A stretch of DNA of 64,000 nt from positions 1 through 64,000 of the forward strand of contig JAGWBQ010000016.1 of assembly GCA_021295815.1 (NCBI GenBank), read 5' to 3'. The DNA is from Gemmatimonadota bacterium (GTDB taxonomy: Bacteria; Gemmatimonadota; Gemmatimonadetes; Longimicrobiales; Gaopeijiaceae). Below, piece after piece: positions 1,048 to 29,252 of the stretch (positions are counted from its first letter, which is position 1; each line of letters begins with the position of its first letter). A program made the position numbers and the translations under genes. Below the pieces are notes generated by a model. That model worked only from the letters and a program-made list of their open reading frames with translations, ran no database searches and was not told the origin of the DNA.

Positions 1048-2066
1048 CCGGACGGATGCCCCCACGGCTCGACCACGAGCGGGGAGGGTCGTTCCTTCTC
1101 CATGGTGACGACGAATTCAGAAAGAGCGAGGTCGAACGCGCTCTTTGCGACCGCTATCTCGACCCCGCCACCCGCGACTTCAACTTCGACCTCTTGCGGG
1201 GCGGCGAGATCGGGCCGGAGAGCCTGATCGCGGTGCTCACCACACCCCCGATGATGGCGGAGTGGCGAGTCGTTCTCCTGCGCGACACGCAGCGGCTGGC
1301 ATCCGGTGCGAAGACCCGGCGCGCGCTGCTCGCCGTGGTGGAGTCCATGCCTGCGGGGCTGGTCGTCGTGATGAGTTACACCCTGTCACGGGGCAGGCAG
1401 CCCAAGTTCTTCAAGGATCTGCGCAAGGCTTCGGCGAGCGCCGAATTCAACCAGCTCTCCGATTACAAGTTGCACGAATGGGTGATCTCTAGGGTCGGCG
1501 AGCTCGGCGGCAAGATCCAGCCCGAGGCGGCACGGGCCGTGACCGCATCCTCCGGCAACGATCTCGGCATACTGGCTCAGGAGCTCGACAAGCTCGTCGG
1601 CGTCGCCGGTGACGGTCCGGTTACCGTCGATACCGTGCGGGCGGCAGGCGTCCGCGTGCCCGCCATGGACCGGTGGAGGTGGTTCGATCTGATCGGTGAT
1701 CGGTCGTTCGATGCCGCGCTGAACTCGCTCTGGGACGTTCTCAACCAGAGCCAGACCGGACGCTCGGAGTCGGTGGTCGGTCTGGTAAGCGGTCTCACGA
1801 CTCACTTCCTCCGGCTCGGTCTTGCCGCCGAGGGTGGACGCCGACAGCTTGCGCCCGCGCTTTCACGCCAATCCTGGCTGGTCGACCGCATAGTGCGTCA
1901 GAGCCGAAGGTGGAGTGCGGCGGAGATCGAGGCGGCCCTCGAGGGCCTGATCAGGCTCGACCGGCTTCTAAAGGCCAGCGCCCACTCCGACGTTCACTAC
2001 CTGGAGGAGTGGCTGCTCGCTCGCAAGGCGCACACCTCGGTGCGGGCCGCCCGCCCGGCGGCGTAA
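1044..2066 (+). CDS. holA: DNA polymerase III delta subunit (clamp loader)
   Basis: 340 aa, normal length for HolA. The N-terminus GGSFLLHGDDEFRKSEVE matches the delta opening, where a P-loop-like fold has lost nucleotide binding. Middle and C-terminal helices (SSGNDLGILAQELDKL, HYLEEWLLARK) fit the family's lid and collar domains. Delta opens the beta sliding clamp during clamp loading. The start used is TTG 1044, whose bases overlap the anti-sigma TGA. ATG 1056, four codons later, is an alternative, and neither has a strong Shine-Dalgarno. A SPOR lipoprotein gene follows after 12 nt and then mutS. Confidence 0.85.
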   Translation: MTGRMPPRLDHERGGSFLLHGDDEFRKSEVERALCDRYLDPATRDFNFDLLRGGEIGPESLIAVLTTPPMMAEWRVVLLRDTQRLASGAKTRRALLAVVESMPAGLVVVMSYTLSRGRQPKFFKDLRKASASAEFNQLSDYKLHEWVISRVGELGGKIQPEAARAVTASSGNDLGILAQELDKLVGVAGDGPVTVDTVRAAGVRVPAMDRWRWFDLIGDRSFDAALNSLWDVLNQSQTGRSESVVGLVSGLTTHFLRLGLAAEGGRRQLAPALSRQSWLVDRIVRQSRRWSAAEIEAALEGLIRLDRLLKASAHSDVHYLEEWLLARKAHTSVRAARPAA

Positions 2067-2078
2067 AACGGGTCCGCC

Positions 2079-3014
2079 ATGAGTCCGCGAACACCCTCGG
2101 TACGGATCTTCGCGCTTCCTGCGGCCCTTGCGGTCCTCCTGGTTTCGCCATTCGACGGGTCTCCTCAGACGCCTCCGACACCCGAAGAGCTTCTCTCGGA
2201 CATAACGCTGCTCGCAACAACCGGCCGCACCGAGGAGGCTCGTGCGCAGCTCGCGGACTGGTGGAGCACCCAGCGGGGCGAGGCCATGCCGAGATCGGTC
2301 GAGCGGGCGCTCTGGTGGCGCGCACGGCTCCAGACCGACCCACTGGCGGCCACGCGGGATTTTCGTCGCCTGCTGGTCGAGTACCCGTCGGGACCCTACG
2401 CCGACCTGGCCCTCCTTCGTCTGGTGCAGGGTGCGCGGGCGAGCGGCGATTCCGTGGCCGAAGAGAACTACCTGGAATCTCTCGCCCGAGGCTATCCCGG
2501 CTCTCCCGGCCACCAGGCGTCACTGGCCTGGGCGCGGGGCGAGGAGGTCCGGCTCCAAGCTGCCGTGCTGATGGACGGCAGGTTCGACGTCGTTCCCGGC
2601 CGGCTCGCCGCGGCGCCTGCTCTGGACGCCACGGACGACATGACCGCTTCGACGAGCGACGCCGAGATGGGCGGCGAGGGCCTGGAAAGGAGCGACGTGA
2701 ACCCGAAACACCCGCCACCCGAGGCGGACTCGGGAACGGAAGCCGGTTCACCGGCGGGCCAGCCGGCAGCTCGCTACGCCGTCCAGCTGGGCGCCTTTCG
2801 TGAGATTTCCCGTGCCGAGAGGCTCATGGACAGGGCGGTGGAGCGTGGGCTCGAGGTCCGAATCGTGCGTTTGCCCGAGAGCGAGCTTCACTATGTGCGG
2901 GTGGGGAAGTACGGAATCGCGGCCGAGGCCGACGAGCTCCAGGTCCGGCTCACCGAGCTCGGATTTCGAACCTTCGTGGTTCGAGATGCTCACGAGGAAA
3001 GGCCGGCCAGGTAG
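2079..3014 (+). CDS. Exported SPOR-domain protein
   Basis: 311 aa. A hydrophobic signal (residues 8-25, IFALPAALAVLLVSP) is followed by a helical TPR-like region (about 35-160) with short tetratricopeptide-style pairs such as LLVEYPSGPYADLALLRL. An acidic, low-complexity linker follows (about 180-230). The C-terminal SPOR domain (about 232-305) starts at RYAVQLGAF and contains RVGKYG. SPOR domains bind peptidoglycan lacking stem peptides, typically at division sites, so this is probably a periplasmic cell-wall-binding protein. It sits between holA and mutS. I cannot assign a more specific role. Confidence 0.78.
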   Translation: MSPRTPSVRIFALPAALAVLLVSPFDGSPQTPPTPEELLSDITLLATTGRTEEARAQLADWWSTQRGEAMPRSVERALWWRARLQTDPLAATRDFRRLLVEYPSGPYADLALLRLVQGARASGDSVAEENYLESLARGYPGSPGHQASLAWARGEEVRLQAAVLMDGRFDVVPGRLAAAPALDATDDMTASTSDAEMGGEGLERSDVNPKHPPPEADSGTEAGSPAGQPAARYAVQLGAFREISRAERLMDRAVERGLEVRIVRLPESELHYVRVGKYGIAAEADELQVRLTELGFRTFVVRDAHEERPAR

Positions 3015-3070
3015 GATCGCGCTCGAACCAGGCTTTCGGCGGGTTCCCTAAGGCCTTTCCGCCTTGCACG

Positions 3071-5773: not shown

Positions 5774-6137
5774 AGCCCGGGCCGCTTCCCGGGCGTCGGC
5801 GTTCGTCGTCCTCGGGGCGATCGGGTGCGGCGATGTCGAGCCTCCCGTTCTCCTGGACGAGCAGGAGTCCGTCCGCTACCCCTTTCCGGCCTGGGACGCG
5901 GGCACGGTCGGAGAGGTCATGCTCAGAGTGCGGGTGACCCCCGACGGCACGGTCGATTCGGTCGAGCTCCAAACCACATCGGGAAAACCGGCCCTCGACT
6001 CCGCCGCGCTGGTCGATGCGTGGAAGCTGCTCTTCGAGCCCGCAAGGCGAGCGGACGAGGAGATCGCAGCCTGGGTCTCGGTGCCGGTGCGGTTCGAGCG
6101 GGAGGATTCCGTCGTTTCCGAGGAGCACGGTCCGTGA
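5766..6137 (+). CDS. Small exported protein with TonB C-terminal domain
   Basis: 123 aa. A short hydrophobic leader ends in a possible lipobox (GAIGC, cysteine about 21); the remainder is one TonB_C-like domain. It has the typical beta-strand pattern RVRVTPDGTVDSVEL, then SSG-like TTSGKPALDSAAL and WVSVPVRFE. The long proline-rich periplasm-spanning arm of classical TonB is absent, so it is unlikely to energise receptors by itself. It may be a lipoprotein paralogue of the domain. It overlaps mutS (ATG inside the mutS end) and ddl (GTGA overlap), so all three are translationally coupled. Confidence 0.7.
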   Translation: MSRARAASRASAFVVLGAIGCGDVEPPVLLDEQESVRYPFPAWDAGTVGEVMLRVRVTPDGTVDSVELQTTSGKPALDSAALVDAWKLLFEPARRADEEIAAWVSVPVRFEREDSVVSEEHGP

Positions 6138-7138
6138 AGATCGTCGTCCTCATGGGCGGTCTCTCCGACGAGCGCGAGGTATCGCTCGCTTCCGGAGCGC
6201 AGGTCGCCAACGCACTACGCGAGGCCGGTCACGAGGCGCTGGCTGTGGACACGGTCGCCGGCGCGCTCGACGAGGCCGAGGAGCGCAGGTTGCTTGCGGG
6301 CGGGGTCGGGCGCAGCCCCCCGGCGGGCGACCGTCTTGCGCGCCTCTCCAACGCTCGCGTCTCCCAGCTCGCTCTCGCCCCGCCGACTCACGACGCCGAC
6401 GTGTTCTTCCTCGCCCTTCACGGAGGAGCCGGCGAGGACGGCTCGATCCAAGGCCTGCTCGACATGGCCGGAGTCGCCTACACCGGCAGCGACAGACTGG
6501 GATGTTCGCTGGCGATGGACAAGGAGGTAACCAAGAGACTCTTGCGGGAGGCCGGTGCGCCCACGCCCGATTGGCGTCTGCTCGACGAGTGCTCGGACAT
6601 GGAAATCGAACGGGCCCTCGGTCTTCCGGTCATCGTCAAGGCGGCGAACGGCGGTTCGTCTCTGAGACTGACCCTCGCCAAGGACAGGGAGCAACTGGCG
6701 CTGGTTCGTCGCGAGAGCCGCTCCTGGAACGACGTGGTTATCTGCGAACGCTACCATCCGGGGAGGGAGTTCACCGTGGGCGTCGTTGGCGGCGACCTGC
6801 TTCCCGTCGGTGAGATCGTGCCGAAGCGCGAATACTTCGACTACATCTCCAAATACCAGACCGGGATGGCCGAAGAGATCTTTCCGGCCGGGATCGATGA
6901 CGGGCTGGCGACACGACTCCAGGAACTCGCTCTCGACGTCTTCCAGGCTCTCCGCATGCGCGACTACGGAAGAGTCGACTTCATGGTCGACGGGGAAGAC
7001 CGACCGTGGTGCCTGGAAGCCAACGCCTCGCCAGGTATGACGGCCAACTCTCTGCTCCCCAAGGCGGCGGCCGCAGCCGGTATCGGGTTTCCCGATCTCT
7101 GCGACCGACTGGCTCGCCTGGCTGCGGAACGCGGGTGA
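6134..7138 (+). CDS. ddl: D-alanine-D-alanine ligase
   Basis: 334 aa from GTG 6134, which overlaps the previous stop as GTGA; the open frame upstream is not coding. It has the ATP-grasp layout: N-terminal VLMGGLSDEREVSLASG, the catalytic loop LHGGAGEDGSIQGLLD, the ATP-binding segment with NGGSSLRLT, the omega-loop-like YFDYISKYQTG, and the metal-binding end LEANASPGMTANSLLP. The enzyme makes the D-Ala-D-Ala dipeptide for peptidoglycan. Small departures from consensus (GGSSLRLT instead of GSSxGxxK-like, NASPGMT instead of NTLPGMT) leave room for slightly altered substrate use. Family identity is firm. Confidence 0.9.
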   Translation: MKIVVLMGGLSDEREVSLASGAQVANALREAGHEALAVDTVAGALDEAEERRLLAGGVGRSPPAGDRLARLSNARVSQLALAPPTHDADVFFLALHGGAGEDGSIQGLLDMAGVAYTGSDRLGCSLAMDKEVTKRLLREAGAPTPDWRLLDECSDMEIERALGLPVIVKAANGGSSLRLTLAKDREQLALVRRESRSWNDVVICERYHPGREFTVGVVGGDLLPVGEIVPKREYFDYISKYQTGMAEEIFPAGIDDGLATRLQELALDVFQALRMRDYGRVDFMVDGEDRPWCLEANASPGMTANSLLPKAAAAAGIGFPDLCDRLARLAAERG

Positions 7139-7244
7139 CGCCTCCACGCGGCTTCAAAGGCGCACGCACTCCCTTCAGACGACCCCTCCTTCCGAATCCC
7201 AAGTGCACCTGCTGGTAACGCCCCTGGGGTAGCCTGATCCCGCT

Positions 7245-7814
7245 TCAGCCGACACCGCCCAGATACCTTGCCGGGATCGGAAATGCTTCGCTCTCGCTCA
7301 GCCAGTAGATGGAGATCACCCACCAGCGCTCGCCGTCGTCGAGGAGCTGGATGGAGTTGATGCCCCTCGCGAAAGGCTCCGGATCGGTTACGCTGCGTCG
7401 CGACTCGTATGTCGAGAACGCGTGCGCGATCACGCCGTACTCTTCGGTGACCCGATGTACTTCGACCTCGTGGAAGCCGTCCCGCTCGAGCATGCCGCCG
7501 ACACGTTCGGCGTATTCCGCAGGTGTGATGACGACTCGCTGGAAGCCTTCGCCGTCGGGGCGCCCCACGACCGGGTTCAGCGTGGCTCCCGGTGCGAAGA
7601 GCGAGCGAAACCGGTCCCAGTCCCGCTCGACTCCGGCGTCTCCCGAAATCACGTCGTAGACCGCCGCGATGATGGCGTCGATCGAGGCCACGTCGGCGGG
7701 ATCGGCTTGAGGCGGCTCCGCCTCCTGAGCTCCCGCCGGACTGCCGGGCGCGAGGGCCGCGATAAGTAAGGCTAAGACGGCGAAACGGCGGAAAGGCGTG
7801 CGCGCTGGCAGCAT
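7245..7814 (-). CDS. Secreted NTF2/SnoaL-fold protein
   Basis: 189 aa. A signal peptide (residues 10-30, AVLALLIAALAPGSPAGAQ) precedes a SnoaL/NTF2-like cone: an initial helix IDAIIAAVYDVIS, RDWDRFRSLFAPGATLNP, then beta strands ending with NSIQLLDDGERWWVISIYW. Secreted members of this fold are common in Gemmatimonadota and most have no known role. It lies alone on the minus strand, convergent with ddl. I cannot name a substrate. Confidence 0.7.
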   Translation of the reverse strand: MLPARTPFRRFAVLALLIAALAPGSPAGAQEAEPPQADPADVASIDAIIAAVYDVISGDAGVERDWDRFRSLFAPGATLNPVVGRPDGEGFQRVVITPAEYAERVGGMLERDGFHEVEVHRVTEEYGVIAHAFSTYESRRSVTDPEPFARGINSIQLLDDGERWWVISIYWLSESEAFPIPARYLGGVG

Positions 7815-7951
7815 GGCGGGCGTGGGGTGGGGTGACAGGCTTCGAGCCGTACACTCGTTGCGGAGGCGGGTGCCCTCTATCCGCCAGAACGCTGGCAGCG
7901 CAGGTCTGGCGCAGCCGGAAGAGGACAGCGGTGCAACCTGTAGGTCGGGCG

Positions 7952-8831
7952 CTACCTCACCTCGGGCGGAAGCCTCTTGACCACTACGGTAGGCACGTCG
8001 AACTCGTCCGTCTCGACGTAGGCGGCCAAACCGTTGGGGCCGAACGCCGAGAACATGGTAGCACCGCTCTGTTGGGGGAAAGTCCCCACGTATTGTCCGT
8101 CCGGGCTGATGACGTCGATAGGCGAGTCGGGCGGGCGAGAGGTGCTGAACGACACTCCGGTCACAACGCTACCGAGTATGTGGTCCTCCCATGGGTAGCC
8201 GCCGTCGGGAGTGCGTCGTACCCAGACACCGCCAGACCAGGTGGTTCTTAGGTCGTCGATCTCCTGTAAGGCCAACCGAGCAACGTTCCTCCTGCTTCCG
8301 CTCTCAGGAGGTAAGCCCTCGTGCCTTCCGGAAAGCCAGCGTACGCTTCCGGCCGCTCAGGTTCGCTGCCGGCTTCGGCTGGAAAATTAACCATCCGGGG
8401 CTCCCGCCCGGGCCGGAAGACATGGAACGCCCTGTGCCCGAAGTCGGGCACGACCGTCGTTCCGTCCCGGAAAGTGACTGCCGATCTGGCCAATTGAAAC
8501 TCGCCTGGACCCTCTCCCGGTCGACCGACCGTCGTCACGAATGCGCCTAAGGAATCAACGACCAGGACACGCAATTCACCTCCGGCGACCACGGTGCCAA
8601 CGACGGCAGCGATGTGCAGGTTGCCATCTGCGTCGAACCCAGAGAAGTGACCGACGTCAACTGTTCCCAGTCCGCGCCTCCGTCTCCCACCCGAAACACC
8701 TCATCGAAATTGGCCGACAGGGCGACATCTTCCGCAGGGAGCTCGACGACGGGAGCTTGGGGTGCCAAAGAAGCTGGCAGCACCCAGCACAGCAGGTAGC
8801 AGAATGCAAGGTTAACCGAGCGAGGAAGCAT
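7952..8831 (-). pseudogene. Frameshifted 6-bladed beta-propeller protein
   Basis: Three overlapping minus-strand fragments form one broken propeller. The first (8831 to about 8635) has a signal peptide and DEVFRVGDGGADWEQLTSV. The second (about 8635 to 8260) continues with DADGNLHI, VVDSLGAFVTTVGRPGEGPG and the propeller motif PGEFQLARS. The third (8275 to 7952) gives [11 protein letters not shown] and the family C-terminus [11 protein letters not shown]. Two single-base shifts, near 8635 and near 8262, separate them. The joined product would be about 290 aa, shorter than the intact homologue at 50187-51308 (373 aa), so part of the middle may also be lost. A sequencing error could fake one shift; two make decay likelier. 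Confidence 0.75.
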
Positions 8832-18588: not shown

Positions 18589-21500
18589 TCACCCCTCCAC
18601 CCGCCTTACCCTGGAGGCGTTGTTGACCTTCCGGACCCGGTATTGGACCGGGATGCGTTCGGCCAGTTCCGTGACGTGGGTCACCAGCCCGACCATCCGA
18701 TCGGCCCCGAGCTGCTCTATGCTCGTCGCCACGGTGTCCAAAGTCTCGGGGTCGAGCGCGCCGAACCCCTCGTCGAGGAAGAGGGCTTCGAGTTTCGGGC
18801 TTCCTCGGGACGCGAGCCCCGCGACGTGCTCCGCAAGAGAGAGCGCGAGGGCCAGCGACGCGAGAAAGGTCTCGCCTCCGGAGAGAGTCTTCGCCGATCT
18901 GAGCTCGTCCCCGTTCCGGTGATCGACGACCAGGAACTCGCTTTGGGCACTCACCTCCAGCGAATACTGGCCGCCCGAGAGCTCCTTCAGCCGTACGGTC
19001 GCTCCAGCCGTGAGCCAGGAGAGCACCTGATGCTGGAGCCAGCGACCGAACTTCCGGGTGCTCAGGTGCTCGCCCAGCTCCTTAGCGACCGCAGCGGAAC
19101 GCCGGATCGAAACCAGTTCACGCTCGGTTTCCCGGCGCTTTTCCAGATCCGCTCCGAGGCTCAGACGCTGCTCGTTCACCGCCCCGAGGGCCTCGGCGCA
19201 TAGGCTTGCGGGCTCGCCGTCCTTTTCGAGATCGAGTCCCGCGATCCGGCAAGACTCCACCAGACCGGTACGCAGTTCGGCTTCCTCCGCTCTCCTGGCC
19301 TCCGCTTTCCGCCGGGTGGCTTCCTCTTCGGCTTCCAGCTCCCTCGCCTTCGCCTCGCTCCACTCCCTTAGGCAGGTCCACAGAGCGACCAGATCGCCTT
19401 CCGGTGGTGGTGGTCCCAGTTCCGCCAGACGATCGCGCTCTAGGCTGAAGCGTCTATGGTCTTCATCGACCTGCTCCGTCAGGTCGGCGTGCTCCCGAGC
19501 GTATTCGGCACGTAAGCGGTCGGCCTCCGCCTGGGTGGACTCGGCCTGCTCCAGCTCGCTATCTGCGGCACTGACGAGCCCCAATGTTTCGGTGATCTCC
19601 GCAGGGCTCGGGGCACCCTTGAGCTCCCGCTCAAGCTTCCGTATGCGCTCGGCGAGCGTTTCCTCACGGCGTTGGGCCGCCGCAAGACCGGTCTCGACCC
19701 GTCGGCGCTCACCGAGCCTCGCACGGACGTTGCGGACGTTCGCGCTCGCGTCGCCCAGCGCCTCGGCACACCGACTGGCAGGCGACTCCGATGCGGAAAC
19801 CGGGACTCCATGATCCCGGCACCTCTGCCGGAGCGACTCCATTCCCTTCTCGGCCGTCTTCCGTTTCGCCGCAGCCTCCTCCAGGCGCTCGTCCCGACGA
19901 GCCTCCACCTCCGTCGCCTTCAGAACCGTCCATCGCACCAATTCCCGCCAGGAGTCCTCGATATCCTCCGTCGGTTGCGGCGGCGCATGCGCGGCCACCC
20001 TGTCTCGGAGCTTCCTGAAGCTGTCCCACCAGGGCCTGAGAGAGGCTTCCGCGTTTTCCGCGTTGGTGCGAGCCACCTCAAGAGCCGCCTGCGCAGCCTC
20101 CTCTTCGGCTCGAGCCCGTCCGAGCCGATTCGCCACCTTGTCAAGCGCGGCCGCTCCGGCCTCTATCTCATCAAGTCCGGGATGACCGGAGAGGGACGCA
20201 AGGAGGTCGGCCGCCGAGCTTCGTTTCTCGTTCAGGAGCACCGCAGCCTCGCTCTTCCTACGACCGGCGCCTTCCAGATGCCGGCGAGCTGATTCATGTG
20301 CTTCCTTCGCCGCCGCCAGCGCCATTTCGGCGGCATCGAGCCCGGGAGAGCCGGGTCGATCAGGCAACTTGTCCACGACCTGCTCGCACACCGGACACGC
20401 CTCGCCGGCTTCGAGATGGCGGGCGAGGTCGGCCGCGCCGTGGAGCCGACGCACATGGTCGAGATCCCTCACCGCAGCCTTCTCCAGGTCGGCCGTCTCT
20501 CTTTGCGCAGCCAGCGCCTGTTCGAGATCCTTCTCCCGCTCCGCCAACATGTCCGCCAGATCGGCGATCGCGCTCTCGGTCTTGGCGATCTCCTCGCGTC
20601 TTTCCCGGATCTTCTCGAGATATGCCCGCTCCGGGAGCGAGGACTGGGCCGTTTCGATTTCCGCCACACCGGCGCGGGCCTCGTCGAGTCGATCGTGGGC
20701 ATCGCCGAGCTCCCCCACCGTCTTGCGTCGAAGCCGGTCCGCCGCACGGGCTCCTTCCGGCAAATCGTTCAAACGAAGGGTGTCCAAGGTCGCTGCAGCG
20801 TTGTCCGCTCTACTCAGCAGCTCCCGCTCTTCGTCCGCGAGCTTTCTCGAGACGGCTTGTTCGCGTTCCACCTCGGATCGCAATGCCTCCAGGGCGCCAA
20901 CGCGAACCTCGGCCTCCGCAACCGCTCGCGGAGTCGCGTCGGCCAATTCCGCCAGAGTCCCTTCGGCTTCCGCCACCTCCTGTGCGGTCCGGCCCACCTC
21001 GCCCGTTACGTCGGCGAGCTCCTGCCGCTTCTCCCTGAAACGCGAGAGGACGGCTCTTTCGGGAAGCTCCCTGCGTTTTTCCCGGGCGGCCCTGCGGCGG
21101 TCCCCGGCAGCTTCGAGCGCGGCTTCGGCCTCGCGAAGCGCCCGCTCCGCGTTCGTGTGACGCCTTACGAGATCCTCGACTCCGGCGGGAACGGAAACGT
21201 GGGTCAGCCGAGCCCGCCTTCCCTTGATCGCCTCGACCCGATCCCGGGCCTGCTCCTCCCCGCGAACGATCTCGCCCATCCTCTTCTCGGTATCGCGAAC
21301 CTCCCGCTGGAGCTCCTCGAGGGTCGCAACCCTATTCTCGAGCCGGTCCACTGCGTCGGCGGTGGCATGCGCGAGGCCTTCCAGCATCCTTTCGAGCAGA
21401 TCGACCCGGGCGTTCAGCTCGACGGCACGCCGGTTCGCGGCTTGCTGGATCTTCTCGTAGAGGTTCAGCCCCAGCAGACGCTCCAGCAGCCTCTGGCGCA

Positions 21501-21984
21501 CAGCGGGCCTGGAGCGCAGGAAGGTGGCGAACTCACCCTGGGGGAGTACGACGCACTTGGTAAAGTGGTCGAAGCTGAGGCCGATGACTTCGTCCTCGAT
21601 TTTCCCGGTAAGCTCGTCAGCCGTGTTGGCGAGAGTGGTCGAGCCGTCTGCGCCGACCTCCTCGAGAACGGCCTCCTTGGTCGAAGCCCCACCCGAGGCG
21701 TTGCGCCTGACCACCCGCACCGCCGTGAACCGCCTGCCACCCACCTCGAAGTCAAGACGTACTCGCGCCTCGACCTTGCCCTGGCTGATCACGGGGGCCA
21801 CCAGGTTTCGGTTTTCGTAGCGCGGCACCGTCCCATACAGCGCGAACACCATCGCGTCGATCAGGCTCGACTTTCCCGAGCCGGTCCGCCCGGTCAGCAC
21901 GAAGATGTCCGTGTCCTCGAAGCTGACCTCGGTCCGTTCGCGGAACGAGGTGAAGCCGTCCAGCTCGAGAGTAAGGGGACGCAC
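18589..21984 (-). CDS. sbcC: Exonuclease SbcC (Rad50-like ATPase)
   Basis: 1131 aa, GTG start two bases after the sbcD stop. The N-terminal half-ATPase has Walker A GRTGSGKSS (about 32-40) and ALYGTVPRYENRNL. Two long coiled-coil arms rich in Glu/Arg/Ala surround a zinc-hook CxxC (ACPVCEQ, about residue 530). The C-terminal half has the ABC signature LSGGETFLASLALALSLAEH (about 1030) and Walker B EALFLDEGFGALDPE. With SbcD it forms the Mre11-Rad50-type complex that opens hairpins and processes double-strand breaks. Last gene of the nurA-herA-sbcD-sbcC unit. Confidence 0.93.
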   Translation of the reverse strand: MRPLTLELDGFTSFRERTEVSFEDTDIFVLTGRTGSGKSSLIDAMVFALYGTVPRYENRNLVAPVISQGKVEARVRLDFEVGGRRFTAVRVVRRNASGGASTKEAVLEEVGADGSTTLANTADELTGKIEDEVIGLSFDHFTKCVVLPQGEFATFLRSRPAVRQRLLERLLGLNLYEKIQQAANRRAVELNARVDLLERMLEGLAHATADAVDRLENRVATLEELQREVRDTEKRMGEIVRGEEQARDRVEAIKGRRARLTHVSVPAGVEDLVRRHTNAERALREAEAALEAAGDRRRAAREKRRELPERAVLSRFREKRQELADVTGEVGRTAQEVAEAEGTLAELADATPRAVAEAEVRVGALEALRSEVEREQAVSRKLADEERELLSRADNAAATLDTLRLNDLPEGARAADRLRRKTVGELGDAHDRLDEARAGVAEIETAQSSLPERAYLEKIRERREEIAKTESAIADLADMLAEREKDLEQALAAQRETADLEKAAVRDLDHVRRLHGAADLARHLEAGEACPVCEQVVDKLPDRPGSPGLDAAEMALAAAKEAHESARRHLEGAGRRKSEAAVLLNEKRSSAADLLASLSGHPGLDEIEAGAAALDKVANRLGRARAEEEAAQAALEVARTNAENAEASLRPWWDSFRKLRDRVAAHAPPQPTEDIEDSWRELVRWTVLKATEVEARRDERLEEAAAKRKTAEKGMESLRQRCRDHGVPVSASESPASRCAEALGDASANVRNVRARLGERRRVETGLAAAQRREETLAERIRKLERELKGAPSPAEITETLGLVSAADSELEQAESTQAEADRLRAEYAREHADLTEQVDEDHRRFSLERDRLAELGPPPPEGDLVALWTCLREWSEAKARELEAEEEATRRKAEARRAEEAELRTGLVESCRIAGLDLEKDGEPASLCAEALGAVNEQRLSLGADLEKRRETERELVSIRRSAAVAKELGEHLSTRKFGRWLQHQVLSWLTAGATVRLKELSGGQYSLEVSAQSEFLVVDHRNGDELRSAKTLSGGETFLASLALALSLAEHVAGLASRGSPKLEALFLDEGFGALDPETLDTVATSIEQLGADRMVGLVTHVTELAERIPVQYRVRKVNNASRVRRVEG

Positions 21985-21986
21985 GG

Positions 21987-23141
21987 CTACAGCTCGCCCT
22001 CGTAGTGGGACTCCAAGAGCTCCTTGAAGAACCTGGAGAGCTCTGTGCTCGGGATGTTCCTCTCTTCCAGGTACTTGTCGAAGAGCGTGGCCGGATCTCC
22101 GTCAGGGGGAGGGGGAGGTGACGGCTCCCGCCCCTCCGACTTCTCGCGTGGGCGCACGATCACGTCGACCGCGTTGGGAAAGAGGTCGCGGATATCGTCG
22201 GCCTCTCCGGGAGCCAGGGCCTCTTCCACGAACACGCGCAGGTAGTCGTCTCCGGTGGTCCCGGCTTGGACCTCCAGTTCCGCTCTTGAACCCCTTATGG
22301 TGCGAAGCCGTCGTCCCCCGGTGATCGGTACCCGTCGAACCTTGGCCCCACTGCCCGCTTCGACGTCCACGATCAGGACCGAATGTTCCTCCTGCTTCTC
22401 GCCGAAATCCAGAGCGAAGGGAGGCCCCGAGTACCGGACGGGGACGCCGAAGGGGACGGACTGGCTGCCGTGAAGATGACCTAGGGCGACGTAATGGGCG
22501 TTCGACGGAAAGATCGTGGCCGGCACGTAGTAGTCCAGGATGTGCGCACCCCGCTCTCCCCCTCCGGCCCGAGCGCCGAGCACCGTCAGGTGGGCAACGA
22601 CCAGGTTCACCGTGTCGTCTCCGAACGGTTCGCACAAACGCTCGACGATCCGGCGGCATCTGTCGGCGTACTCCACCTGATGCCTGTCGGCGTCCTCCTC
22701 CATGAGCGCCTGCGCCCTTACCACCTTCCTCTTCGAAAGAAACGGGAGGAGGGCTATCACCGCCTTTTCGTCGGAGCGGGTCGTGATCCGTGTCACGCCG
22801 CCCTCGTTCGGGCGCCGCACTTCGGAGGCGACCGTCACTCCGGCGATCTCGAGCAGAGGATCCAGCGCGGCAAGCTTCCTGGGGTTGTCGTGGTTGCCGC
22901 TGATCACCACGACTCGCGCTCCCATCTGCGCCAGCTTGAGCAAGGTTCCGTATACGATCCTCTCCGACTCGGGACTGGGTACGGCGCCGTCGAACTGGTC
23001 GCCCGCCACCAGAACCAGGTCCACCGCCTCTCGCTCGGCGATGTCGACGACATGGTCCAGTGCGGCTCGATGCTCGTCGGCCCTGCTGCGCCCGCGAAGA
23101 GTCTTGCCGACATGCCAGTCGGCTGTGTGCAGAATCTTCAG
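21987..23141 (-). CDS. sbcD: Exonuclease SbcD (Mre11-like nuclease)
   Basis: 384 aa. Metallophosphoesterase motifs appear in order: TADWHVGK (DxH), VAGDQFDGA (GDxxD), ISGNHDNPRKL (GNHD), VAHLTVLG, and ALGHLHGS (GHxH). A capping region follows, then an acidic, proline-rich linker (REPSPPPPPDGD) and a C-terminal helix that should bind SbcC coiled-coil. No ATG, GTG or TTG lies in frame near the N-terminus. The best start is CTG at 23141, eight bases after AGGAG, which itself overlaps the herA stop; ATT at 23135 is the other possibility. The long open frame upstream overlaps herA and has no start. Confidence 0.88.
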   Translation of the reverse strand: MKILHTADWHVGKTLRGRSRADEHRAALDHVVDIAEREAVDLVLVAGDQFDGAVPSPESERIVYGTLLKLAQMGARVVVISGNHDNPRKLAALDPLLEIAGVTVASEVRRPNEGGVTRITTRSDEKAVIALLPFLSKRKVVRAQALMEEDADRHQVEYADRCRRIVERLCEPFGDDTVNLVVAHLTVLGARAGGGERGAHILDYYVPATIFPSNAHYVALGHLHGSQSVPFGVPVRYSGPPFALDFGEKQEEHSVLIVDVEAGSGAKVRRVPITGGRRLRTIRGSRAELEVQAGTTGDDYLRVFVEEALAPGEADDIRDLFPNAVDVIVRPREKSEGREPSPPPPPDGDPATLFDKYLEERNIPSTELSRFFKELLESHYEGEL

Positions 23142-23152
23142 TCGGGCTGCTC

Positions 23153-24844
23153 CTAACCGAGGTCGTCGAAGGGGTCGGACTCGTCCTCGCCGCCGTCCCC
23201 CGATCCCATTTCGTCGAGACGCGTCGCCCACGCCGGGAACGGGAAGTTGAGCACGAGAGGTACGGGAAGCTCCGGTTGGGCCACGATCATGGTGCCCGGT
23301 TTGGCGATGGTCGCCCGCTGGCGGACGGCGGAGGGTAGGAATGCGTACTCGGGCCGACCCGCTTCGGCGCTGTCGAGCCGTCCGACCACGCGTACCGAAG
23401 AATTGGCGATGATGCGCCGTTCCACCTCGCTCGCCGTCTGCTGAGCTCCTATGAGGATCACGCCGAGGGACCGACCGCGTTCGGCGATGTCGAGAAGGAT
23501 CTCCTTGATGGGGCTTCTGCCCTTGCGGGGCGCGTACTTGTTGAGCTCGTCCAGAACCACGAAGAGGAGCGGTGTTCGGGAGCCGGCCTCCTCCTTCCTC
23601 TCGAACTCCCTGCGCAGGACCGCACCTACCACGAAACGCTGGGCTCGGCTCGATAGCTTGGCGATGTCCACAACGGCCACTTGGGCCTGGAAGTCGAGCC
23701 GACGTTTCTCCGGATTGCTCAAGTCGGCGCGGACCAGGTGACCGACATCTCGACGCGCCGAGTGGAGTCGCCGTACGAAGGCGTTGACGGTACCGGTGCC
23801 AATCGACCGGCCCGTCCATCCGGGCTCGCCTTCCTCGAGGCGTTGGGTGATGATCGCAATGAGATCCTCGAAGGTCCGGCAGGGGGCTTTCTCAAGAATC
23901 ACCGCGCCCTCGCCGCCGTCCTTGGCCTCCTTCCTCAGCTTTTCGGTGACGTTGTGCAGGACGATGGTGTACTGCTGGCGCTCGTCGTCGGCGTCGGCGA
24001 ACAGAAAGGGGAGCAGCCCATCCCGGCAGAAGTCGAGGAGTGTCCAGCAAAAGGGGTTCAACCCCTTGAGCCGGCTTCCCGCATGAGGAGCTCCCGAGGA
24101 ATCGCCGGGACGCGGCGGCACCCAGAGCTCCACGCTCTTGAAGGGCTCGGCCGGGAGCCCGAGGGCTTCGTACCTCTGTCTGTTTTCGTCGTCCAGCTCC
24201 CGGTTCTCGGAATCGAGGAAGAGCAGATCCTCCCCCTTGACGTTGAAGATCAGCGCCTTGGTGTTGTGCGCTGCGGGCCCGAGCTGGCCGGAGTTGAAGA
24301 GGCTGTGGAGGAGGAAGACGGCGTAGCTCGTCTTGGTGGCGACTCCGGAGATCCCGCTGATGTTGAAGTGCGCCCCGCGACTCCCGTCGATGAACTCCGT
24401 GTTGACGTAGACGGGTTCCCCGTCCCGCGAAAGTCCGACCGGCACCTTCCGCTTCATTCCATCGAAGAAAAGGGCCTGATCACGAGCTTCGCCGGTTCCC
24501 TTGGACACGACCTCGCCGGGCATGGGTGCGACAAACACCTCGGGCTCGAAACGCATGGCCATGATCTTGGCCGCTTCCGCGACCTCGCCCGGAAGCACCC
24601 CGTCCTCGATCAGAAAGACGTCGCTGTCGAAGCGGGCGCCTTCGTGTCGGGCCCTTACCTCGGTGACGATGCCGAAGATCTTCACGGGTCTTGCGACGCC
24701 GGGAAGACGACGCTCGAGCAGTACCACATCGTCCAGTTGGAGGTAGTGGCCGTCCGCGATGGCGACCCAGAACTCGAGCGGGGTAGCCGGCTCGGTGCCC
24801 AGGACGCGACCGACGAAGGGCTGATGGTTGTCGGGCGAGGTCAC
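23153..24844 (-). CDS. herA: HerA-type DNA translocase ATPase (DUF87)
   Basis: 563 aa from GTG 24844, overlapping the nurA stop as GTGA. The N-terminal HAS-barrel-like region (FVGRVLGTEPATPLEFWVAI) is typical of HerA. The P-loop is the variant SGISGVATKTSYA (about residue 165) instead of the classical GxxGxGKT, a form used by HerA proteins paired with NurA. Walker B is FVVLDELNKYAP; a sensor-like region follows (ILIGAQQTASEVERRI). HerA forms a hexameric ring that pumps DNA ends to NurA nuclease. It stands between nurA and sbcD, an arrangement like the archaeal end-resection operon. Confidence 0.87.
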   Translation of the reverse strand: MTSPDNHQPFVGRVLGTEPATPLEFWVAIADGHYLQLDDVVLLERRLPGVARPVKIFGIVTEVRARHEGARFDSDVFLIEDGVLPGEVAEAAKIMAMRFEPEVFVAPMPGEVVSKGTGEARDQALFFDGMKRKVPVGLSRDGEPVYVNTEFIDGSRGAHFNISGISGVATKTSYAVFLLHSLFNSGQLGPAAHNTKALIFNVKGEDLLFLDSENRELDDENRQRYEALGLPAEPFKSVELWVPPRPGDSSGAPHAGSRLKGLNPFCWTLLDFCRDGLLPFLFADADDERQQYTIVLHNVTEKLRKEAKDGGEGAVILEKAPCRTFEDLIAIITQRLEEGEPGWTGRSIGTGTVNAFVRRLHSARRDVGHLVRADLSNPEKRRLDFQAQVAVVDIAKLSSRAQRFVVGAVLRREFERKEEAGSRTPLLFVVLDELNKYAPRKGRSPIKEILLDIAERGRSLGVILIGAQQTASEVERRIIANSSVRVVGRLDSAEAGRPEYAFLPSAVRQRATIAKPGTMIVAQPELPVPLVLNFPFPAWATRLDEMGSGDGGEDESDPFDDLG

Positions 24845-25803
24845 GCGGCTTCTCCGACGTTCAATTCCATGACCGCGTCTCTCACGGCGCGCAGGGCGAG
24901 GTGGGCATCGCCCAGAAGATGATGCAGCCGGCGTTCCAACCCGGCAACGGGAGTCAGGTTCACCGGAGCTCTCGGGTCCCGGTGGGGCGTGGAGGCGAAA
25001 CGGGGCAGCCAGCCTGCGGCCCGATCTACCGAGGTCACGGCGGTCTCGCGCCCGGCCGTCGCCGTCACGTCGATACGCGCGATCCCCGCCCAGGGGCTCG
25101 ACCAAGGTCCGGGGTCGCCTACGCGGACGTAGCAGGCCAGCGTGTCGTCCCTCAGGGCGAAGAGGCCCGTTCGTTCACCGACGTCGATCTGCGGCACACG
25201 GCGCCAATGCTCCATGGCGAGCAGCCGTCGGTGGTGGGTCTTGACGTAGCCCATCACCGGAATCCCGCGCGCGCTGCGGACGTGGTGCAAAGGACCGTCG
25301 AACACCGTCAACCATCCTTCGTCGCAGAGCCGCTCGCCGATTACCGCCTCCGCCTGTCGCATCAGCTGTTGCAGGTGCTGCCCAGGCGCATCCGGCTCGT
25401 CGCCCTCGACCGAGCAAGGTTTCCACTTCCACACGCGCCCCTGGTCGGGCAGCGGAACCTGCGCGCCTCCCGCAAAGATGACGGCGCGACCGGTCTCGAC
25501 CCGGTCTATGACGGCACGACCCTCGATCAGCACAGCCCCGGCTCCCCATGCCCCCGCGATCCCGCGAACGGTCTCGCCCTCGGTTCGGGTCAGGTGCGCT
25601 TCGGTCCTGCGCACCCCGTCAACGAAACAGAGGCGGGGTGGACGTTGAATGGGTTCGGGCCTGTGGATGCGGAAATCGCCGTCGTCCTCCACCAGGCTGC
25701 ACTCGATATCGGTCCCGTCCTTGGCGTCCGCCTGAAACCCGGAGCCGTATTCGACGTCGAAGGGCTCCACACCTATGAAAGGAGCTCGTCGTGGTTCAGT
25801 CAT
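24841..25803 (-). CDS. nurA: NurA-like 5'-3' nuclease
   Basis: 320 aa from ATG 25803; a longer frame adds 43 unlikely residues. The RNase H-like NurA core is visible: FVDGVRRTEAHL (first catalytic Asp with the FxDG motif, about residue 61), a second acidic motif TVFDGPLHH (about 175), and GYVKTHHRRLL, a basic segment typical for the family. It starts the four-gene operon and overlaps herA by four bases. NurA digests the 5' strand at DNA ends inside a HerA-NurA complex. Identification rests on these motifs plus the herA neighbour. Gap of 115 nt to the upstream transporter gene, with a 14-bp GC palindrome at 25883-25896. Confidence 0.82.
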   Translation of the reverse strand: MTEPRRAPFIGVEPFDVEYGSGFQADAKDGTDIECSLVEDDGDFRIHRPEPIQRPPRLCFVDGVRRTEAHLTRTEGETVRGIAGAWGAGAVLIEGRAVIDRVETGRAVIFAGGAQVPLPDQGRVWKWKPCSVEGDEPDAPGQHLQQLMRQAEAVIGERLCDEGWLTVFDGPLHHVRSARGIPVMGYVKTHHRRLLAMEHWRRVPQIDVGERTGLFALRDDTLACYVRVGDPGPWSSPWAGIARIDVTATAGRETAVTSVDRAAGWLPRFASTPHRDPRAPVNLTPVAGLERRLHHLLGDAHLALRAVRDAVMELNVGEAA

Positions 25804-25918: not shown

Positions 25919-27241
25919 TCACCGGCCCGCACGACCCGTGCTCAGCGCCGATTCGCATGGCCGCAGAAGGTAGGCGTTCGCGGCCAGCCTCCCGCACAAG
26001 GTAGCCGCGAAGGCGGCTGTCGCTCCGACCATGCCGATCCCCCATCCGAACACGATGAAGAACACGCCCACCACAGCTAATTCAACCGCGCTGGCCGCCG
26101 TTATGGGGCCGGTGCGTCGACCCTCAAGAAGAATCGCCCGCTGGAGGGAGAGCACCGTCGCGAGAAAGGGAATCGGGAACATGACCCGGGTGGCGTCGAT
26201 GGCGAACCCCTCCAGTTCCACCGTCAAGCCGGAGACGGTCACGAACCAGAGGTGCGACACCGGGTGAACGAACGCCACTGCCGCGAGTCCCGCGGCCGTG
26301 ACCGAGCCCAACGTGATCGCGAAGGTTCGCAGCTTGACGAAATGGCGGAAGCGTCGGCCCATGAGCGCGATCGCCACGTCCTGGTACGCGATGGATATCG
26401 AGCGGAAGAAGAAACCCACCGAGTTGACGACCGGGAACACCGCCAGGGACTCGATTGGCGACACGCTGCGACCCATGAAAAATGCGAGCATCGGCTGCAT
26501 GGCCATCCCGATCACCGGCGTGAGCAGGAGTGGGAAGTAGAAATGCGCGATCTCCCGGTAGGACATCGGCGTGGCCGCCCTCCTCCGACGGCGACCGCTG
26601 TTGGAGAGCAGCTCGCGAAGGGCCGGTCTCACCATGAGCCGGGCGGCGACAGCCTCGCAGACCACGGCGACCGAGAGCGCGGCCGGAGCGATCCATGCGC
26701 CGGGAAGGTCCACCCACAAATATCCGCAGCCCGCCGCCAAGGATAGGGAGAACAGACGGATCAAGGTTCCGCGAGCCACCAGATGCGTCTGGCGAGCTCG
26801 GATGAGGAGGCCCTGATAGAGACGGCGAAAGCCGATCGCCGCAGGCCAAGGCAGGAAGCACCAGAGAGCCCCGTAGGTGAGGTCCGCGATGGGGTCGGGC
26901 AGGCCGATGAGCCTTCGCATCAGGAGTTCGTGCACCGACGGAATCAATATCACCAGCAGAATCAGCGTCGTACCCGCGCAGAGGCCCCAGGCGAATCGCC
27001 GCAGACGCAGGAAGGAAGCCCGGTCTCTGGCCAGCGAGGTTGCCGCGCTCATCAGCATGATGACCGGAGCCTCGATCAGGATCGCCAGTGCGAGTGCGAC
27101 CCCGTACGCGGCCAAGTTGAACTCCGGCTCGGCGAGCCGTGCGACGACCGCAGCAAGTATCGGCCCCTCGAGCGCCATCATGAGCCAGGTGGAGGCTAGC
27201 GGCGCCCAGAAGCGGGCGATGGTCAGCTGTGTGAGCTTCAA
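25919..27241 (-). CDS. MATE-like / ANKH-like multispanning transporter
   Basis: 440 aa with about twelve transmembrane helices. The N-terminus (WAPLASTWLMMALEGPILAA) and the neighbouring segment LAAYGVALALAILIEAPVIM resemble bacterial relatives of the progressive-ankylosis protein ANKH, a member of the MOP/MATE flippase superfamily. The duplicated six-helix plan is visible, with a second opening helix near residue 240 (FYFPLLLTPVIGMAMQPM). Human ANKH exports citrate and ATP or pyrophosphate-related solutes; the bacterial substrate is unknown. TTG start at 27241 with weak ribosome-site support. It may be cotranscribed with nurA, but nothing ties it to DNA repair. Confidence 0.68.
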   Translation of the reverse strand: MKLTQLTIARFWAPLASTWLMMALEGPILAAVVARLAEPEFNLAAYGVALALAILIEAPVIMLMSAATSLARDRASFLRLRRFAWGLCAGTTLILLVILIPSVHELLMRRLIGLPDPIADLTYGALWCFLPWPAAIGFRRLYQGLLIRARQTHLVARGTLIRLFSLSLAAGCGYLWVDLPGAWIAPAALSVAVVCEAVAARLMVRPALRELLSNSGRRRRRAATPMSYREIAHFYFPLLLTPVIGMAMQPMLAFFMGRSVSPIESLAVFPVVNSVGFFFRSISIAYQDVAIALMGRRFRHFVKLRTFAITLGSVTAAGLAAVAFVHPVSHLWFVTVSGLTVELEGFAIDATRVMFPIPFLATVLSLQRAILLEGRRTGPITAASAVELAVVGVFFIVFGWGIGMVGATAAFAATLCGRLAANAYLLRPCESALSTGRAGR

Positions 27242-27303: not shown

Positions 27304-27386
27304 CGGAGCGGGAGGGATTCGAACCCCCAAGTCCTCGCGGACGCTCGCTTTCGAGGCGAGTGCAATAGCCATTCTGCCACCGCTCC
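27304..27386 (-). tRNA. tRNA-Ser(CGA)
   Basis: Class II tRNA. Acceptor GGAGCGG/CCGCTCC, anticodon stem CTCGC/GCGAG with loop CTCGAAA giving anticodon CGA, long variable arm (GTCCGCGAGGAC). Discriminator G; no encoded CCA. Last gene of the array in the direction of transcription. Confidence 0.96.
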
Positions 27387-27403
27387 TGAAACGGTAGAGA
27401 GTA

Positions 27404-27477
27404 TCGGGGTGCCCGGATTCGAACCGGGGACCTCTGCGACCCGAACGCAGCGCTCTACCGGACTGAGCCACACCCCG
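27404..27477 (-). tRNA. tRNA-Pro(CGG)
   Basis: Acceptor CGGGGTG/CACCCCG, discriminator A, anticodon stem CTGCG/CGCAG with loop TTCGGGT, anticodon CGG. T-arm CCCGGTTCGAATCCGGG. No encoded CCA. A 156-nt spacer separates it from the next tRNA upstream. Confidence 0.96.
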
Positions 27478-27505
27478 GGGATTGAGGATCGCGCGATATG
27501 AGCCC

Positions 27506-27648
27506 GCTCACGGACGGGGTGGGATGGCCCGAGCTCCGCTCGACCGTCTCCGGCCGCCGCCCCCTCGCGGGCGCGCCGGCCTTCGGCTCGACTCCGTTCG
27601 AACCCCAGCCCCCCCCCTGTTCGCTCACGCTCACGGACGGGGTGGGAT
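27506..27648. repeat. Direct repeat of the tRNA-Ser(GGA) 3' end
   Basis: The 20 bases at 27629-27648, which run from the downstream flank into the acceptor and T-stem of tRNA-Ser(GGA), recur exactly at 27506-27525 without the rest of the tRNA. The repeats are 123 bp apart. The segment between them is GC-rich, with no gene I can support. Confidence 0.85.
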
Positions 27649-27717
27649 TCGAACCCACGCGGGCGTTAGCCCACACGATTTCCAATCGTGCGCCTTAAGC
27701 CACTCGGCCACCCGTCC
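27634..27717 (-). tRNA. tRNA-Ser(GGA)
   Basis: Class II tRNA. Acceptor GGACGGG/CCCGTCC, discriminator G, anticodon loop TTGGAAA with anticodon GGA, long variable arm (GGGCTAACGCCC). No encoded CCA. Its 3' end is duplicated downstream at 27506-27525. Confidence 0.96.
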
Positions 27718-27728
27718 CGGCCTTTCAG

Positions 27729-27813
27729 CGGAGGGAGTGGGATTCGAACCCACGCGGACGCGAAGTCCAACGCCTTAGCAGGGCGCCGCCTTAAGCCACT
27801 CGGCCATCCCTCC
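27729..27813 (-). tRNA. tRNA-Ser(GCT)
   Basis: Class II tRNA. Acceptor GGAGGGA/TCCCTCC, discriminator G, anticodon loop CTGCTAA with anticodon GCT, long variable arm. D-arm TGGCCGAGTGGCTTAAGGC is shared with tRNA-Ser(GGA). No encoded CCA. Confidence 0.95.
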
Positions 27814-27815
27814 GA

Positions 27816-27888
27816 TTGCCCCGCTAGGGCTCGAACCTAGACTCTCCGGAGCCAGAATCCGGCGTGTTGCCAGTTACACCACGGGGCA
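27816..27888 (-). tRNA. tRNA-Gln(CTG)
   Basis: Acceptor TGCCCCG/CGGGGCA with the U1-A72 pair typical of tRNA-Gln, discriminator A, anticodon stem CCGGA/TCCGG, loop TTCTGGC, anticodon CTG. No encoded CCA. One base separates it from tRNA-Thr. Confidence 0.96.
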
Positions 27889-27889
27889 G

Positions 27890-27962
27890 AGCCACCTGTC
27901 GGATTTGAACCGACGACCCCGTCATTACGAGTGACGTGCTCTACCAACTGAGCTAAGGTGGC
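27890..27962 (-). tRNA. tRNA-Thr(CGT)
   Basis: Acceptor GCCACCT/AGGTGGC, discriminator T, anticodon loop CTCGTAA with anticodon CGT, T-loop TTCAAAT. No encoded CCA. Confidence 0.96.
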
Positions 27963-27971
27963 GATCGAAAG

Positions 27972-28044
27972 TGGAGCCGAGGGGAGTCGAACCCCTGACC
28001 TCAGCGTTGCGAACGCTGCGCTCTCCCAACTGAGCTACGGCCCC
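27972..28044 (-). tRNA. tRNA-Ala(CGC)
   Basis: Acceptor GGGGCCG/CGGCTCC contains the G3-U70 wobble that identifies tRNA-Ala. Anticodon stem CAGCG/CGCTG, loop TTCGCAA, anticodon CGC. Discriminator A, no encoded CCA. Upstream, a perfect GGCCGGGG/CCCCGGCC hairpin (28049-28069) separates it from tRNA-Val. Confidence 0.97.
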
Positions 28045-28071
28045 TCGCGGCCGGGGCGGGACCCCGGCCCA

Positions 28072-28145
28072 TGGGCGCGAGAGGACTCGAACCTCTGACC
28101 TCTACGATGTCAACGTAGCGCTCTAACCAGCTGAGCTACGCGCCC
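28072..28145 (-). tRNA. tRNA-Val(GAC)
   Basis: Acceptor GGGCGCG/CGCGCCC, discriminator A, anticodon stem CTACG/CGTAG, loop TTGACAT, anticodon GAC. No encoded CCA. Confidence 0.96.
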
Positions 28146-28149
28146 CGAG

Positions 28150-28223
28150 TGCGCCCGGGAGGAGTCGAACCCCCAACCTCCTGATCCGTAGTCAGACGCT
28201 CTATCCAATTGAGCTACGGGCGC
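28150..28223 (-). tRNA. tRNA-Arg(ACG)
   Basis: Acceptor GCGCCCG/CGGGCGC, discriminator A, anticodon stem CTGAC.. with loop CTACGGA, anticodon ACG. By general bacterial biology A34 would need TadA deamination to inosine. No encoded CCA. Confidence 0.96.
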
Positions 28224-28229
28224 ATGTGA

Positions 28230-28313
28230 TGCCCACGACAGGACTCGAACCTGTACGCCGTTTCCGGCACTGGTCCCTCAAACCAGCCTGTCTACCAATT
28301 CCAGCACGTGGGC
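28230..28313 (-). tRNA. tRNA-Leu(GAG)
   Basis: Class II tRNA. Acceptor GCCCACG/CGTGGGC, discriminator A, anticodon stem CTGGT/ACCAG, loop TTGAGGG, anticodon GAG, long variable arm (TGCCGGAAACGGCG). No encoded CCA. Confidence 0.96.
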
Positions 28314-28327
28314 TCTCTCGACAGCGA

Positions 28328-28412
28328 TGCTCGAGGAGGGATTCGAACCCTCACGGGGTTGCCCCCACAGGATCCTGAATCCTGCGCGTCTACCGATTCC
28401 GCCACCCGAGCT
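28328..28412 (-). tRNA. tRNA-Leu(CAG)
   Basis: Class II tRNA. Acceptor GCTCGGG/CTCGAGC with one G-U pair, discriminator A, anticodon loop TTCAGGA with anticodon CAG, long variable arm (TGGGGGCAACCCCG). No encoded CCA. Confidence 0.96.
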
Positions 28413-28448
28413 TCGACCGTCGCGCCGAACCGCCTTCGTTCGGCGAAA

Positions 28449-28521
<73 letters not shown>

Positions 28522-28567
28522 TTCGCACGACCCAGAAAGCCATCCGCTCGCGCGGAATGCCGAAAAG

Positions 28568-28641
28568 CGGGGCTGACGAGACTCGAACTCGCGACCTCCG
28601 GTGTGACAGACCGGCACTCTAACCTACTGAGCTACAGCCCC
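28568..28641 (-). tRNA. tRNA-Asp(GTC)
   Basis: Acceptor GGGGCTG/CAGCCCC, discriminator G (expected for Asp), anticodon stem CCGGT/ACCGG, loop CTGTCAC, anticodon GTC. No encoded CCA. Confidence 0.96.
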
Positions 28642-28706
28642 TTTCCCGGGGCTCTCGGCCCCGATACCTTCGTTGTTTGGCCGACGCGGCTCGCCGCGCC
28701 CTCCTA

Positions 28707-28778
28707 CGCCCCGGCGGGGAATCGAACCCCGTCCGCCACCTTGAAAGAGTGGAGTCCTGACCGTTAGACGACCGGGGC
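28707..28778 (-). tRNA. tRNA-Glu(TTC)
   Basis: Acceptor GCCCCGG/CCGGGGC, discriminator G, anticodon stem CCACT/GGTGG with loop CTTTCAA, anticodon TTC. The only array member besides initiator tRNA with a non-GC-type wobble base. No encoded CCA. Confidence 0.95.
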
Positions 28779-28797
28779 AGTCGATCTCCTCCCCGAA

Positions 28798-28871
28798 CGG
28801 GCCCGGAGGGAATCGAACCCCCAACCGCCGGTTTTGGAGACCGGTGCTCTACCTAGTTGAGCTACAGACCC
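28798..28871 (-). tRNA. tRNA-Trp(CCA anticodon)
   Basis: Acceptor GGGTCTG/CGGGCCC with two G-U pairs, discriminator G (Trp identity base), anticodon stem CCGGT/ACCGG, loop CTCCAAA, anticodon CCA. The 3' CCA tail is not encoded. Confidence 0.96.
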
Positions 28872-28897
28872 TGTGTTCAGCTTGATGTCCTCTCGGA

Positions 28898-28970
28898 TGG
28901 CCAGGGGCGGAATCGAACCGCCGACACCATGATTTTCAGTCATGTGCTCTACCAACTGAGCTACCTGGCC
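28898..28970 (-). tRNA. tRNA-Phe(GAA)
   Basis: Acceptor GGCCAGG/CCTGGCC, discriminator A, anticodon stem CATGA/TCATG, loop CTGAAAA, anticodon GAA. No encoded CCA. Its 5' end lies four bases after the T-tract of an intrinsic terminator. Confidence 0.96.
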
Positions 28971-28974
28971 CGCG

Positions 28975-29012
28975 AAAAAAAACCGCCCGAGCCGTTGGTT
29001 CGACTCGGACGG
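28975..29012 (-). terminator. Intrinsic terminator between tRNA-fMet and tRNA-Phe
   Basis: On the minus strand the stem CCGTCCGAG/CTCGGGCGG (one mismatch-type pair) with a 12-base loop is followed at once by eight T residues (28982-28975). It ends the tRNA-fMet transcript. Only CGCG separates the T-tract from mature tRNA-Phe, so the 16 downstream tRNAs need read-through or a promoter overlapping the terminator. Confidence 0.85.
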
Positions 29013-29167
29013 GGGATCGCAGCGGAGCGGGCGCCTTTTCAGGGCCCTCCCCCGCTTGCCCCCGCAAGCGGGCTCCACGTATCGGACGCGAGGAAGCTCG
29101 GCATCGAATTCTCCGTCGGATGGTGATCGCTTGCCGCAGGCGTCAGGCCACTGCGGCGCTCTCGAGA

Positions 29168-29241
<74 letters not shown>

Positions 29242-29252
29242 ATTGACCGAAG

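Follow-up and report, generated by a model that had tools for sequence, protein, structure and literature searches.

The nurA–herA–sbcD–sbcC operon described here is a mosaic of two operon types. In the 64,000-nucleotide stretch of a Gemmatimonadota contig that was analyzed (the window), a type-B nurA is fused exactly to a type-A herA–sbcD–sbcC, and the type-A nurA has been lost. Type A has the order herA–sbcD–sbcC–nurA and type B the order nurA–herA–sbcD–sbcC, and both are present in the family to which the window belongs. We consider it probable that this recombinant operon, of bacterial type, serves DNA-end resection as a second route beside AddAB.

The identities of the four proteins divide along the two types. 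HerA is 72–76% identical to its Gemmatimonadota type-A relatives and 41–42% identical to type B, and SbcD is 60–64% identical to type A and about 31% to type B. SbcC has an overall identity of 45–52% to type A, and its matches to type B are no more than partial (28–38%). NurA shows the reverse, with 55–70% identity to type B (70% to the NurA of type-B genome G107) and 31–34% to type A. In a block-by-block comparison, HerA groups with type A from the very first residues, NurA with type B along its whole length, and the switch therefore falls at the nurA/herA boundary, the overlap at 24841..24844 on the minus strand. A B-like HerA barrel, as an adaptation to the type-B NurA, was also considered, and neither such a barrel nor a type-B HerA N-terminus was seen in 40-residue blocks. 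No remnant of a type-A nurA was found in the window, and the genome holds neither another nurA nor another herA of these kinds. The window is the sole A/B mosaic seen, a judgement that leaves aside genome G104, in which a type-B nurA lies at a contig end.

All four genes are encoded on the minus strand, from 25803 to 18589, with coordinates and junctions rechecked on the sequence. The nurA gene (24841..25803; 320 aa) has an ATG start and a TGA stop, the latter overlapped as GTGA by the GTG start of herA (23153..24844; 563 aa). The TAG stop of herA lies within the GGAG ribosome site of sbcD (TAGGAG), since the sequence around it reads ...GGTTAGGAGCAGCCCGACTG, and the stop of sbcD (21987..23141) is followed after a 2-nt gap by the GTG start of sbcC (18589..21984; 1131 aa). 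None of the four genes contains an internal stop, and the catalytic motifs of all four proteins are intact. The tight coupling and the four gene names given by the first-pass annotation are thus borne out. The same annotation took the coupling to imply a stoichiometric machine, which is not shown: the NurA–HerA complex of Deinococcus radiodurans has a 2:6 ratio (PMC9960219), and tight coupling therefore carries no implication of equal stoichiometry. Cotranscription of the four genes and the stoichiometry of the window's complex are both presumptive.

By sequence, the HerA of the window is of the bacterial type known from D. radiodurans (PDB 7f6d). Its phmmer match to the D. radiodurans protein (7f6d_B; E=5.2e-147) covers residues 10–548 in two stretches, including the HAS barrel. 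Archaeal HerA models match it weakly (E 0.005–0.07), no Pfam model matches it at E<0.1, and a DUF87 family search of its own genome misses it, so that Pfam annotation overlooks this HerA. The P-loop GISGVATKTS is common to both proteins, and in the alignment the equivalents of the D. radiodurans ATP-site residues K175, T176, D487, and E488 are kept. SGVATKT is present in all 81 type-A rows, and SG[VL]ATKTS is found in types B and C as well. Mutation of K175 in the D. radiodurans protein impairs ATPase activity and resection (PMC9960219). The unusual form of the loop, which lacks GxxxxGK[ST], raised the possibility of a dead or novel ATPase; this was rejected because D. radiodurans HerA has the same loop and needs K175 for ATPase activity. 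The acidic patch through which that protein binds NurA (D78/E80/D81) is partly kept, as SDVFL. By analogy, the HerA of the window would be a hexameric, DNA-dependent ATPase.

NurA likewise appears to be of the type known from D. radiodurans (PDB 7f6d), with a phmmer match to 7f6d_H at E=3.1e-13, on which the homology rests because the Pfam NurA model scores below its cut-off (13.2 bits against 21). Equivalents of the catalytic residues D53, K201, and R309 of the D. radiodurans nuclease are kept in the alignment and conserved in types A and B, and in both types most of the basic residues of motif 3, by which NurA binds HerA, are retained.

The sbcD and sbcC products are a bacterial SbcCD pair whose translations hold complete motifs, and the best matches of both are bacterial subfamilies. 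SbcD, a Mre11-type phosphoesterase, scores 182.7 bits with TIGR00619 (cut-off 77.65). SbcC, a Rad50-type ATPase, matches TIGR00618 at E=2.7e-69, with 234 bits against a cut-off of 478. The Pfam domains of both proteins are above cut-off, those of SbcC being AAA_23 and SbcC_Walker_B, and its translation holds a Walker A motif (GRTGSGKS), an LSGGE signature, LDEGFGALD, and a CPVC hook. At 1131 aa it is longer than most type-A SbcC proteins (about 775–955 aa). Where homologues of sbcD start, the window has no ATG, GTG, or TTG; the frame opens there with CTG at 23141–23139, eight bases past the GGAG, and continues CTG AAG ATT CTG CAC, giving LKILH where the usual form is MKILH. The closest conventional start codon in this frame, a GTG at 23231, lies 30 codons upstream and inside herA; unless that codon is used, sbcD probably starts at CTG. 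Gene callers would miss this start or pick the GTG.

Operons related to that of the window are widespread in Gemmatimonadota and Actinomycetota; the type is common among bacteria and no archaeal peculiarity. With HerA as the query, a scan of GTDB genomes gave at least 411 relatives, of which the best 80 are 59–75% identical and come mostly from these two phyla, with one Chloroflexota record. Within these 80, sbcD follows herA within about 700 nt in 62 of the 77 loci with room for it, so the herA–sbcD cluster is not a chance association. The tight herA–sbcD–sbcC–nurA arrangement is found in 39 of the 61 loci with room for four genes, and in the majority of the remainder a gap precedes nurA (e.g., in Glycomyces) or sbcD. 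None of these 80 best relatives has nurA ahead of herA; where nurA is found, it follows sbcC. The first-pass annotation had proposed a comparison of gene order, with scattering of the genes among relatives as the outcome that would tell against it: the content of the operon is indeed widely conserved, but its nurA-first order is not shared by these relatives. Four records (L008–L011) carry Gammaproteobacteria titles. Their sequences are almost the same as those of genus g11, which belongs to the family of the window, so transfer to Gammaproteobacteria was not accepted, and the titles of these metagenome-assembled genomes (MAGs) are, from their sequences, probably wrong.

At E<=1e-20, the HerA family is present in 238 of 395 sampled Gemmatimonadota genomes; divided by hand on identity and E-value, with B and C separated by identity and neighborhoods, they fall into about 20 of type A, 17 of type B, and 201 of a more distant type C. 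In the five type-C genomes examined, nurA-like and sbcD/sbcC-like genes are linked to herA, in the order nurA–herA–sbcD–sbcC where the contig allows, although no sbcCD was seen near the herA of G058. Most of the genomes sampled from families f6, f7, and f9 carry type-C HerA, and these families mostly lack strong AddAB hits.

Types A and B take each other's place at two chromosomal sites common to both, where the flanks are 69–93% identical overall. At the first, in genus g25, type-A genomes G113 and G115 and type-B genomes G116, G107, G114, and G120 have the same neighbors, with the operons in opposite orientation and flanks (L167 and L170 against L155, L152, L158, and L171) that are 69–90% identical. 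At the second, type-A G117 and type-B G118, G124, and G127 have common flanks, in the same orientation, that come near the operon edges, with identities of up to 93 and 89% between G117 and G118. All 34 listed genomes of g25 and g11 carry one nurA type each, and none of the 395 sampled genomes of the phylum has both type A and type B. At a contig end in G120 (C72:5-190) there is a fragment of a second type-B-like nurA, the full copy being on C636. In L168, a direct duplicate of ~2.7 kb (701-3383 and 5334-8183) adjoins the type-A operon, and both copies match the single left flank of the type-B locus L160. This duplicate is a possible trace of A/B exchange.

The window's own operon follows an array of 17 tRNA genes (27304..29242, minus strand; ARAGORN) and a MATE-type transporter gene (25919..27241, minus strand), which has orthologues in relatives of the family and lies 115 nt upstream of nurA. 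In G019, a genome of the window's family, this array recurs with its order unchanged (L183) together with the MATE gene, followed on the other strand by homoserine kinase and threonine synthase (thrB–thrC), names given from reading the sequences. In four more relatives MATE adjoins the thr pair or part of it. No thr genes were found in the window. Given the MATE–thr order of the relatives, the operon was probably inserted, or the region rearranged, at the site where they have thrB–thrC.

The first-pass annotation noted that no recBCD or addAB genes lie in the window, which is true, and set the operon against the use of RecBCD or AddAB by most bacteria. That contrast fails for this genome. Another contig (G000:C1) carries an AddAB-like pair, a 1143-aa UvrD-type helicase-nuclease and a 1105-aa AddB-like protein, with nuclease domains; RecN is present as well (507.9 bits), and no match to RecJ was found in the genome, which is 96% complete. 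The idea that in this genome the operon stands in for AddAB is therefore rejected. Each of the 37 type-A or type-B carriers sampled has a strong AddAB-type hit. By a hand tally of strong PF12705 hits (E<=1e-20), such a hit is present in 37 of 37 type-A/B carriers, 29 of 201 type-C carriers, and 100 of 157 noncarriers, a contrast confounded by descent because type C is concentrated in few families.

In the model that we favor, SbcCD would open blocked or hairpin ends, a HerA hexamer resembling that of D. radiodurans would pump duplex DNA into a NurA dimer seated on the HerA N-terminal barrel, and cutting of the 5′ strand by NurA would provide RecA with a 3′ tail. HerA–NurA and SbcCD together would form a second resection pathway beside AddAB. 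In D. radiodurans, 5′-strand cutting by the 6:2 HerA:NurA complex is coupled to translocation (PMC9960219). The model presumes that a type-B NurA binds a type-A HerA. Such cross-pairing is plausible from sequence since motif 3 of NurA is largely common to both types, though HerA retains its acidic patch only in part. A role in repair is likewise presumed by analogy. Deletion of nurA–herA in D. radiodurans or Thermus leads to modest effects on, or even improved, damage resistance (PMC9960219, PMC12977600), and a 2026 study of archaeal HerA–NurA argues against resection, leaving the role disputed between resection and an antiviral function (PMC12977600).

A rival reading takes the operon for a nuclease system directed at phages or plasmids and not for a repair machine; phage antagonism would then account for the swapping of types A and B at one site. 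HerA does form antiphage complexes with Sir2 and DUF4297 nucleases, and archaeal HerA–NurA has been proposed to be antiviral (PMC12977600, PMC11291478); the module is, moreover, patchy in the family, and its two types never co-occur and are exchanged at shared sites. Nevertheless, the operon proteins have no close PADLOC match (HerA reaches 41 bits against mad8 and 30 bits against a defense HerA), the window's operon sits among housekeeping genes such as the tRNA array and MATE, and type C is found in most genomes of whole families, unlike a sporadic defense gene. We regard a purely defensive role as unlikely. Also quite unlikely, in our estimate, is a broader version in which the operon is a swappable, polymorphic module serving both repair and defense, its diversity driven by phage antagonism and its parts open to recombination into working hybrids such as the present one, so that HerA–NurA pairing would be more promiscuous than supposed.

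Trees of the two proteins bear on the recombinant origin itself. In the NurA tree the window falls inside the type-B clade (SH-aLRT 99), and a grouping with type A is rejected (AU p=0.003). In the HerA tree it forms one clade with 12 type-A rows from Gemmatimonadota (SH-aLRT 100). An account without recombination would take the window to have the ancestral arrangement, with the HerA, SbcD, and SbcC of type B having evolved fast after the split. The nurA-first order common to types B and C fits such an account, and when the long branches of type C are included, HerA as sister to all type B is not rejected (AU p=0.515). That placement still conflicts with NurA, however, which lies inside the type-B crown (support 87): the window's NurA is 70% identical to that of L152, whereas the NurA of type-B L124 is just 57% identical to it. 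HerA nested at NurA's position in the type-B crown is rejected (AU p=1e-63), its identity being 41% to genomes that are 72–78% alike among themselves. An ancestral arrangement is thus highly improbable, and recombination between the two types remains the reading that we prefer. An assembly artefact joining contigs with different operons gains something from the source being a draft MAG of 35 contigs and from the lack of a second A/B mosaic in the sample, but the exact 4-nt functional overlap, the continuous coding in intact frames, the similar GC3 (0.77–0.81), the contamination of 0.24%, and the lack of further nurA or herA genes of these kinds in the genome disfavor misassembly at the junction and leave it only a very small residual probability.

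Among the closest known systems is the D. radiodurans NurA–HerA pair (7f6d), also a nurA–herA operon, with the same HerA family and a related NurA that has the same catalytic residues. The window's pair differs in being joined to sbcD–sbcC and in coexisting with an AddAB-like pair, whereas Deinococcus-Thermus has been described as lacking RecBCD and AddAB (PMC9960219). The nurA–hepA–sbcD–sbcC cluster of Oceanithermus profundus, likened here by its published description, is bacterial too and has sbcD and sbcC downstream of herA. It was previously compared with the archaeal operon (PMC5448004) and has not been reported as a mosaic. The archaeal herA–nurA–mre11–rad50 operon unites the same four functions, and in gene content the label "archaeal-style" given to the window's operon is apt. 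As a statement of ancestry it is not supported: HerA, SbcD, and SbcC belong to bacterial branches. The HerA–Sir2 and HerA–DUF4297 antiphage systems also pair a HerA-type ATPase with a nuclease, but in the window the nuclease is NurA and SbcCD is attached. No paper describing the operon in Actinobacteria or Gemmatimonadota was found in the literature searched. What is new here is the breadth of the operon, the alternation of types A and B, and the hybrid; four-gene synteny in a bacterium was already known.

Bacterial NurA–HerA has been said to occur in few bacteria only (PMC9960219). Against this stand the 238 Gemmatimonadota carriers of the HerA family and its coupling to SbcCD in many Actinomycetota. 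The natural interchange of types A and B and the natural hybrid also provide a direct test of partner specificity. Finally, type C in the sampled genomes mostly has no AddAB beside it, and every carrier of type A or type B has an AddAB-type hit, a contrast suggesting that the operon may be the main resection machine in the former and a second one in the latter; the type-C operon may thus be the main resection machine of families f6, f7, and f9.
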